Assembly: GCA_001797815.1 (NCBI GenBank)
Contig: MGQK01000030.1
Span: forward strand, 4,761-10,987
DNA: 6,227 bases
Direction: 5' to 3'
From: Deltaproteobacteria bacterium RBG_13_61_14
GTDB lineage: Bacteria > RBG-13-61-14
The notes beneath the pieces were generated by a model. It ran no database searches, was not told the origin of the DNA, and worked only from the letters and a program-made list of their open reading frames with translations. Below, piece by piece: positions 143-6,067 of this stretch (position 1 is its first letter; each line of letters opens with the position of its first letter). The position numbers were made by a program, and so were the translations under genes.

Positions 143-191
143 GCCTGTTACCTTGACCGCGTGGAAGGGGGTGAGAGAACTAGCTTATAGA

Positions 192-902
192 TCAGGATGA
201 CTCGTCCTCGTCTTCCTCGTCCTCTTCCGTGTCTTCCTCGGACTCTTCTTCAGGAGCTTCCCGGTCTTCTTCCTCTTCCTCCCACTCCTCGTCCGTTTCC
301 CGGTCCGCTTCGGGTTCCTCATCTTCCGGCGATCCGCGCTCCTCGCCCACCAACTCAGCCGCTTGACCGGCCAGGGATTCTTCCTGGAGTTCCTCCTTCT
401 CCTTGAGCGAGGGCAGGTCGGCCAGGCTTTTCAGGCGGAAGAATTCCAGGAATCGCTTGGAGGTGCCGTAGATCAGGGGCTTGCCCGGAACATCCTTGCG
501 GCCCTGGATCTGGATGAAGTCATGATCGAGCAAGGTCTTGAGCACCCCGCCCGAGTCCACGCCCCGGATCTCCTCGATCTCCGGCCGGGTCACCGGCTGG
601 CGGTAGGCGATAATGCTCAGGGTCTCCAGGGCCGGCCGGGAGAGCCGCACCGGCTTGCTCTGCAAGAGCCGTCCCACCCAGGCCGCGTTTTCCGGGCAGG
701 TCTGCAACTGAAAGCCTCCGGCCGCTTCCACCAGCCGCAGCCCGCGCTCCGGCCGCTCGCACTGCTGCTTCAACTCCTCCAAGGCCTCCCGCACCTGCTT
801 CTTGTCCGCGTCCAGAAGCTCATACAGGCGCGCCAGCGGAAGCGGCTCGCCCGCGGCAAAGAGCAGGCTCTCGAGGATGGATCGAATTTGTTCCTTATCC
901 AC
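192..902 (-). CDS. scpB: Segregation and condensation protein B (ScpB) with a long acidic tail
   Basis: ScpB dimerises and binds the ScpA kleisin, forming the SMC-ScpAB complex that organises and segregates the chromosome in the cytoplasm. The 236-residue protein has the family's two winged-helix domains: residues 1-80 (start MDKEQIRSILESLLFAAGEP) and about 86-158. The signature LSRPALETLSIIAYRQPVTR (87-106) is followed by PEIEEIRGVDS, the GR-(K)-x-x-PGKP element (134-142) and IYGTSKRFLEFF (144-155). The core ends near residue 165. After it comes an unusual tail: 32 of the 42 residues from 193 to 234 are Glu or Asp. The start codon is GTG; an in-frame TGA lies a short way upstream with no ATG between, and GAGGGG sits 8 nt before the GTG. 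It follows scpA by 48 nt, as expected for partners made together. Confidence 0.97.
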   Translation of the reverse strand: MDKEQIRSILESLLFAAGEPLPLARLYELLDADKKQVREALEELKQQCERPERGLRLVEAAGGFQLQTCPENAAWVGRLLQSKPVRLSRPALETLSIIAYRQPVTRPEIEEIRGVDSGGVLKTLLDHDFIQIQGRKDVPGKPLIYGTSKRFLEFFRLKSLADLPSLKEKEELQEESLAGQAAELVGEERGSPEDEEPEADRETDEEWEEEEEDREAPEEESEEDTEEDEEDEDESS

Positions 903-3454: not shown

Positions 3455-3472
3455 GGCATCACAATTTTTAAG

Positions 3473-3501
3473 AATCTATCAGAGGCCGGCGGAGGTGTCA
3501 A
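3473..3501 (-). promoter_or_regulatory. Sigma-70 promoter of the M50-trpS-scpAB operon
   Basis: Reading the minus strand, a perfect -35 box TTGACA (3501-3496) is followed by a 17-nt spacer and TAGATT (3478-3473), which matches the -10 consensus at 4 of 6 positions. Transcription would begin around 3466, leaving only about 12 nt before the ATG at 3454. That short leader agrees with the missing ribosome-binding site of the protease gene. Confidence 0.6.
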
Positions 3502-3512
3502 TGTTCAGGCAG

Positions 3513-3742
3513 CCTGACCGGCTACCACTTTTTCAGAGAGTCCTCAGATTAGACGGATCCATGATCAGCCAGGGCGGTCAGGGCCGGGTGGTCTGGGAAA
3601 TGGGTGGAGGGAGCGGAGGTTTAGCCAAGGACAGGAAAAGGCATGGGATGGTTGATTTCAACGAGGGGAGCCTGAAGCCCAACCCCTGGGAGCATTCAAG
3701 AACTCGGTGAAATCGGTGGATAAAATCGGTTAGACGGTCAGG
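3513..3742. repeat. Three copies of the octamer CGGTCAGG
   Basis: The octamer CGGTCAGG occurs at 3575-3582 and 3735-3742 on the plus strand and inverted at 3513-3520. The inverted copy lies 11 nt upstream of the -35 box of the leftward promoter, and the last copy lies 17 nt upstream of the possible -35 box of the rightward promoter. They could be regulator sites shared by both promoters, or chance. Confidence 0.3.
3581..3611 (+). other. G-quadruplex-type motif
   Basis: Five GGG tracts (3581-3583, 3586-3588, 3595-3597, 3602-3604, 3609-3611) are separated by loops of 2, 6, 4 and 4 nt, which satisfies the usual G3N1-7 pattern with one spare tract. It lies between two divergent promoters, where a folded structure could affect either one. 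Folding is inferred from the pattern alone. Confidence 0.45.
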
Positions 3743-3759
3743 TCTGATTGTGCTTGCGT

Positions 3760-3788
3760 TTGTCGCGGAGTTGTGTCAAGATTATTAA
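3760..3788 (+). promoter_or_regulatory. Possible promoter of the small lysine-rich peptide gene
   Basis: TTGTCG (3760-3765, 4 of 6 matches to the -35 consensus) is followed after 17 nt by TATTAA (3783-3788, 4 of 6 matches to the -10 consensus). The start of transcription would fall near 3795, at the first base of the leader hairpin, giving a leader of roughly 70 nt. The boxes are only moderate; the location is what makes them credible. Confidence 0.35.
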
Positions 3789-3794
3789 TGTTTG

Positions 3795-3840
3795 GAGGAG
3801 GGATGAGATTACTCACTAAATAATTTAAGTCCCCCTCCTC
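3795..3840 (+). promoter_or_regulatory. Leader stem-loop that can mask a Shine-Dalgarno sequence
   Basis: GAGGAGGG (3795-3802) is exactly complementary to CCCTCCTC (3833-3840), forming an 8-bp GC-rich stem across a 30-nt loop. The loop contains a smaller stem, ACTAAA (3815-3820) with TTT and AGT (3824-3826, 3828-3830), leaving TAA as its loop and A3827 bulged. The left arm is also a strong Shine-Dalgarno sequence for a six-codon frame at 3803-3823, and the right arm resembles the anti-Shine-Dalgarno end of 16S rRNA. Confidence 0.45.
3803..3823 (+). CDS. Possible leader mini-ORF, six codons (MRLLTK)
   Basis: ATG at 3803 begins a frame encoding MRLLTK and ending at TAA (3821-3823). GGAGG (3794-3798) lies 4 nt before it, a little close but usable; the alternative AGGAGG is too near. 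The frame lies within the leader of the lysine-rich peptide gene and its ribosome-binding site can be hidden by the 3795-3840 stem. It ends with AAA TAA followed by TTT, and the downstream gene ends the same way. A frame this short can easily arise by chance, and no attenuation logic such as a run of regulatory codons is evident. Confidence 0.25.
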   Translation: MRLLTK

Positions 3841-3855
3841 GCACCAGCTTTCAGA

Positions 3856-3861
3856 AAGGAG
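3856..3861 (+). promoter_or_regulatory. Ribosome-binding site of the small lysine-rich peptide
   Basis: AAGGAG ends 6 nt before the ATG at 3868. It is the main evidence that such a short frame is translated. Confidence 0.7.
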
Positions 3862-3867
3862 AAGACC

Positions 3868-3948
3868 ATGTCTTGTGGAATGAAGCACGCCAAGAAGGGC
3901 AAGGCCAAGACCAAGGCTAAAAAAGCTACCAGCAAGAAGAAGAAATAA
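3868..3948 (+). CDS. Small lysine-rich basic peptide, 26 residues
   Basis: This short gene encodes 26 residues beginning MSCGMKHAKKGKAK and ending with four lysines; 12 of 26 residues are Lys, and there is one Cys (C3), one His and no acidic residue. AAGGAG (3856-3861) lies exactly 6 nt before the ATG, an optimal ribosome-binding site. An intrinsic terminator follows 29 nt after the stop, so it appears to be a complete single-gene transcript. Nine of the 12 lysines use AAG, in line with the GC-rich host. I do not recognise the family. The Lys/Ala repeats resemble the tails of bacterial histone-H1-like proteins and the extensions of some ribosomal proteins, so binding to DNA or RNA is a reasonable guess, but nothing in the sequence proves it. 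The peptide has no signal or membrane segment. It could alternatively be the mRNA part of a structured small RNA. Confidence 0.68.
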   Translation: MSCGMKHAKKGKAKTKAKKATSKKKK

Positions 3949-3976
3949 TTTTTCTTTTTCATGCAACTTGAGCATG
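3936..3976 (+). other. Two hairpins at the end of the small-peptide gene
   Basis: Ten bases before the stop (3936-3945, GAAGAAGAAA) pair with 3951-3960 (TTTCTTTTTC) with a single G-U wobble, placing the TAA stop in a 5-nt loop. A second hairpin, CATGC (3960-3964) with GCATG (3972-3976), follows with a 7-nt loop; C3960 can belong to only one of the two. Both are weaker than the terminator that comes next. The first arm is also lysine codons, so the pairing may be incidental. Confidence 0.4.
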
Positions 3977-4001
3977 AGGGGACCATGGGTCCCCTTTTTT
4001 T
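3977..4001 (+). terminator. Intrinsic terminator after the small-peptide gene
   Basis: AGGGGACC (3977-3984) pairs perfectly with GGTCCCCT (3988-3995) around the loop ATG, and T3995 begins a run of seven T (3995-4001). The 8-bp GC-rich stem followed directly by a U-tract is a textbook Rho-independent terminator acting on the plus strand only; the minus strand has no T-run after the hairpin. It separates the small-peptide unit from dinG. Confidence 0.88.
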
Positions 4002-4046
4002 CCTCCTTGCACGCTCACCCCACTCCCGGTAAACTGTAGCTCGACC

Positions 4047-6067
<2,021 letters not shown>

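Follow-up and report, generated by a model that had tools for sequence, protein, structure and literature searches.

Many small proteins are known from bacteria, and gene callers miss genes as short as the 26-codon, lysine-rich open reading frame (ORF) considered here. Is this frame a gene with a transcription unit of its own, or is it incidental to a non-coding RNA, a regulatory leader, or filler DNA? We examined it within the window, that is, the whole stretch of 6,227 nucleotides from Deltaproteobacteria bacterium RBG_13_61_14 that was analysed. The reading to which we lean, if only slightly, is a lineage-restricted small gene on a short monocistronic mRNA, with a product that would be a polycation binding RNA, DNA, or the ribosome. 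The features involved are collected in Table 1.

Table 1. Coordinates of the ORF, its surrounding signals, and related tRNA-Leu fragments (window positions unless a locus is given).
Feature	Position	Strand	Basis
26-codon ORF, MSCGMKHAKKGKAKTKAKKATSKKKK	3868-3948	+	read from sequence; single copy in own genome
Shine-Dalgarno (SD) AAGGAG, 6 nt 5' of ATG	3856-3861	+	read from sequence
Intrinsic terminator, 9-bp stem then T7	3976-4001	+	terminator scan, predicted fold
A/U-rich hairpin across last Lys codons and stop codon	3933-3959 (approximate ends)	+	predicted fold
Hairpin GAGGAGGG...CCCTCCTC, 3' arm being the tRNA-Leu fragment	3795-3840	+	predicted fold
Weak promoter-like TTGTCG-17-TATTAA, 8/12	3760-3788	+	by eye; below scan threshold
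Copy of host tRNA-Leu(GAG) 3' end, attachment-site-like scar	3824-3852	+	27/29 identical, extends past CCA
Solo tRNA-Leu(GAG) 3' ends	L035 10691-10714, 17884-17907; L036 2727-2750; L037 ~4777-4800; L049, L051, L052		

Re-reading of the sequence bore out what the earlier note had said of the frame: the 26-residue product has 12 Lys (46%), neither Asp nor Glu, and a single Cys (Cys3), and AAGGAG stands at the claimed distance of 6 nt from the ATG. The host pgk, gapA, and Thx genes are likewise preceded by AAGGAGG-type sites. The ratio of AAG to AAA among the Lys codons is 9:3, compared with 155:38 in ten host genes, and host codon usage fits the ORF no better than local composition (log-likelihood difference of -1.0 nat). 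Codon choice is uninformative here and leaves the coding status undecided. Elsewhere in the window (185-322), a minus-strand frame overlapping the acidic, poly-Glu/Asp C-terminal tail of ScpB gives a Lys/Arg-rich ORF of 45 residues; this ORF is a frame artefact and calls for caution in naming Lys-rich ORFs.

On the minus strand, the neighbours of the ORF are genes for ScpB, ScpA, a Trp/Tyr-class tRNA synthetase (TrpS-like), and an M50 peptidase; the plus strand carries a DinG-type helicase gene followed by one for a thiamine pyrophosphate (TPP) enzyme. Between 3455 and 3976, we found no plausible plus-strand gene besides the ORF, which makes it the only plus-strand coding candidate for the terminator. 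The GC-rich terminator stem (3976-3996, core 3978-3994) starts 27 nt past the ORF stop codon, and its pair probability in the predicted fold is at least 0.996, so the terminator claimed behind the ORF was recovered by both scan and fold. Because a plus-strand terminator is present and no other plus-strand gene lies in 3455-3976, the locus is likely transcribed now or was once. The SD, the terminator, and the absence of another gene give good support to the dedicated transcription unit proposed in the earlier note, and these signals suggest that the ORF with its SD and terminator is probably a real unit. However, the possible promoter reported there did not hold up: the promoter scan found no plus-strand sigma-70-like site, the best candidate by eye being the 8/12 match in Table 1, and the sole promoter that the scan did find (3501-3473, minus strand) fits the M50 gene. 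In the predicted fold, AAGGAG and the start codon are partly paired, which counts against a translated gene. Under the favoured reading, a short monocistronic mRNA would start somewhere in 3455-3850, be translated from the AAGGAG/ATG start, and end at the terminator. The product would be a disordered polycation that most likely uses its charge to bind RNA, DNA, or the ribosome; such binding is our guess from charge and composition.

To gauge how readily such an ORF arises by chance, we applied 20,000 rounds of dinucleotide shuffling to 3455-4046. Frames of 20 or more codons behind an SD turned up in 35% of the shuffled sequences, so length and SD alone carry little weight, and acid-free frames of 26 or more codons turned up in 1.3%. 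In none of the 20,000 did an SD-preceded frame of the former length reach 40% Lys, a threshold chosen after the sequence was seen. A less circular check covered 450,518 strand-bases (both strands) of fetched loci, including the window's own contig. There, 23 ORFs of 20-60 codons start with ATG and have an SD (AGGAG or GGAGG, spaced 4-8 nt from the start), and of these the ORF at 3868-3948 alone has a terminator in the next 70 nt. The only other one with more than 25% Lys encodes the host's Thx, a genuine ribosomal peptide, on which account its locus had been fetched. The ORF is probably a real unit, since it is the sole terminator-followed case among the 23 and the other Lys-rich one is the genuine Thx.

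The peptide occurs once in its own genome, with no further copies. Relatives available for comparison comprised none from the same family and two from the same order and class (G001 and G002). The search in these two genomes, suggested by the earlier note, gave no match to the peptide, and no Lys-rich ORF was found around dinG, the G001 M50 locus (L033), or most tRNA-Leu sites. Upstream of dinG, G001 has an mrdA-like gene and G002 has unrelated DNA. The Lys-containing frame of 16 residues seen in L035 bears no relation to the peptide. In 12 further dinG loci taken from a contig scan, we found no comparable ORF directly 5' of dinG; the few Lys-rich frames there lie kilobases from dinG or within AT-rich or repetitive DNA. 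Among about 630 other genomes, which included a sample of 386 and those of two more phyla, there was no match behind a strict first-look filter; this filter let through very few candidates from each genome (0-2 among the rows listed), and diverged homologues would escape it. Weak matches in G015, G018, and G030 (E 0.18-2) include no separate small Lys-rich gene and were treated as chance. The tblastn search of plasmids and phages gave no match, a result that low-complexity filtering renders uninformative, and a DNA pattern for MSCGMKHA gave 0 matches in viral contigs. The statement that no known family fits holds for Pfam, NCBIfam, PHROGs, PDB sequences, and Thx, with the proviso that profile methods are weak for 26 low-complexity residues; literature searches found no matching peptide. 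From these comparisons, the peptide looks like an orphan found in one genome of a sparsely sampled lineage.

A feature absent from the earlier note lies just upstream: the copy of the host tRNA-Leu(GAG) 3' end stops 3 nt before the SD. ARAGORN found no degenerate complete tRNA at the window, and the intact tRNA-Leu(GAG) gene is on another contig (C33), after gapA-pgk-tpiA-secG. The DNA 3' of that intact gene (L014 3200-7915) is AT-rich, with 28-43% GC in parts compared with roughly 60% for the contig, and encodes a 521-residue protein and part of a 1003-residue protein that, by eye, looks restriction-methylase-like. Solo tRNA-Leu(GAG) 3' ends with no tRNA body are also dispersed in both same-order genomes. 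Two of those in G001 share the orientation of the intact tRNA and lie about 3.7 and 10.9 kb downstream of it; in G002, those on the same contig share orientation. A reversed-pattern control found none. The solo ends resemble attachment-site copies left by integrative elements targeting the 3' end of a tRNA, and as no integrase was found at the tRNA-Leu-copy loci, we infer rather than observe such an origin. Adjacency to what is probably a recombination scar is in keeping with a lineage-specific gene, and it also sustains the view that the ORF arose by chance. In both G001 and G002, a protein of roughly 100 residues with a HKKCALCVHKNSL motif (L035 17583-17888 and L037 4473-4781, both minus strand; 61% identical between the two genomes) begins at the tRNA-Leu fragment on the opposite strand; it has no Pfam match and only a PHROGs match at E 0.16.

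The chance view, which we consider rather unlikely, takes the frame as an accidental ORF in filler DNA by the tRNA-Leu scar, with the terminator left over from a displaced tRNA unit or insulating dinG. Chance ORFs are expected near a scar that ends so close to the SD, similar solo fragments are scattered through the same-order genomes, the peptide is an orphan, and more than a third of the shuffles held an SD-preceded ORF of this size class. However, the combination of SD, Lys content, and terminator is unique among the loci examined, and the terminator lies about 124 nt beyond the tRNA fragment, which is long for a tRNA trailer. Alternatively, the locus may specify a non-coding RNA of about 130-220 nt that ends at the terminator, the ORF being incidental. 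The segment 3780-4005 folds more stably than shuffles (z -4.1), with a 5' hairpin, the A/U-rich hairpin, and the terminator, and codon choice gives no coding signal. Much of this z-score is probably contributed by the terminator itself, though, and no Rfam family matched at its gathering score (the best weak match, an L20 leader, scored 21.4 against a cut-off of 58.7). Since a frame with 46% Lys and no acidic residue is also unlikely to arise by chance behind an ideal SD, we regard such an RNA as improbable.

Much less credible still is a leader peptide in which ribosome stalling at the Lys codons governs terminator read-through into dinG. The locus shares with amino-acid attenuation leaders a short ORF in which one amino acid is abundant and, after it, a terminator and then a same-strand gene. 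In contrast to those leaders, the prediction contains no antiterminator alternative, and neither dinG nor the following TPP enzyme is a lysine biosynthesis gene. Attenuation of dinG is unlikely because of these downstream genes and because the terminator stem forms with a probability of at least 0.996 at every ribosome position tried. The lineage-restricted small gene is the reading we retain, and counted against it are the absence of a homologue among the sequences searched, the lack of a good promoter, neutral codon choice, and the probable scar next to it.

If translated, the ORF would add one more orphan basic microprotein and might exemplify a gene born at the scar of a mobile element. 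The bolder suggestion is that a novel polycationic protein of very small size acts on the ribosome or nucleoid alongside Thx, possibly encoded by a young gene that arose next to the tRNA-Leu scar; this is tentative and rather unlikely. The peptide gene is probably an orphan of a known general kind, at present with no sign of unusual activity. Lys/Ala-rich disordered tails, such as histone H1-like C-termini and ribosomal protein extensions, have an AKKxKAKxKAKK-type composition like that of the peptide; here, however, the Lys-rich stretch forms a complete ORF by itself and matches no family. A parallel in gene layout comes from Thx (bTHX), likewise a free-standing gene for some 26-36 Lys/Arg-rich residues with a strong SD in the same genome. 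Because the host already makes this free-standing ribosomal peptide, a basic micro-gene is plausible. The peptide itself was rejected as Thx (PF17070), as the Pfam scan, run to E 10, returned no family and the MGKGD..T.RGK profile did not match. The host Thx (MGKGDLKTRRGKIHRGSSGKTRPKKRQKAKAAAKKA; profile E 6e-8) is a separate, longer gene at a different locus on contig C116 with no sequence match to the peptide. It encodes 36 residues (L039 1468-1578, minus strand), has a AAAGGAGG site, and carries an Ala/Lys-rich C-terminal extension past the usual Thx length.
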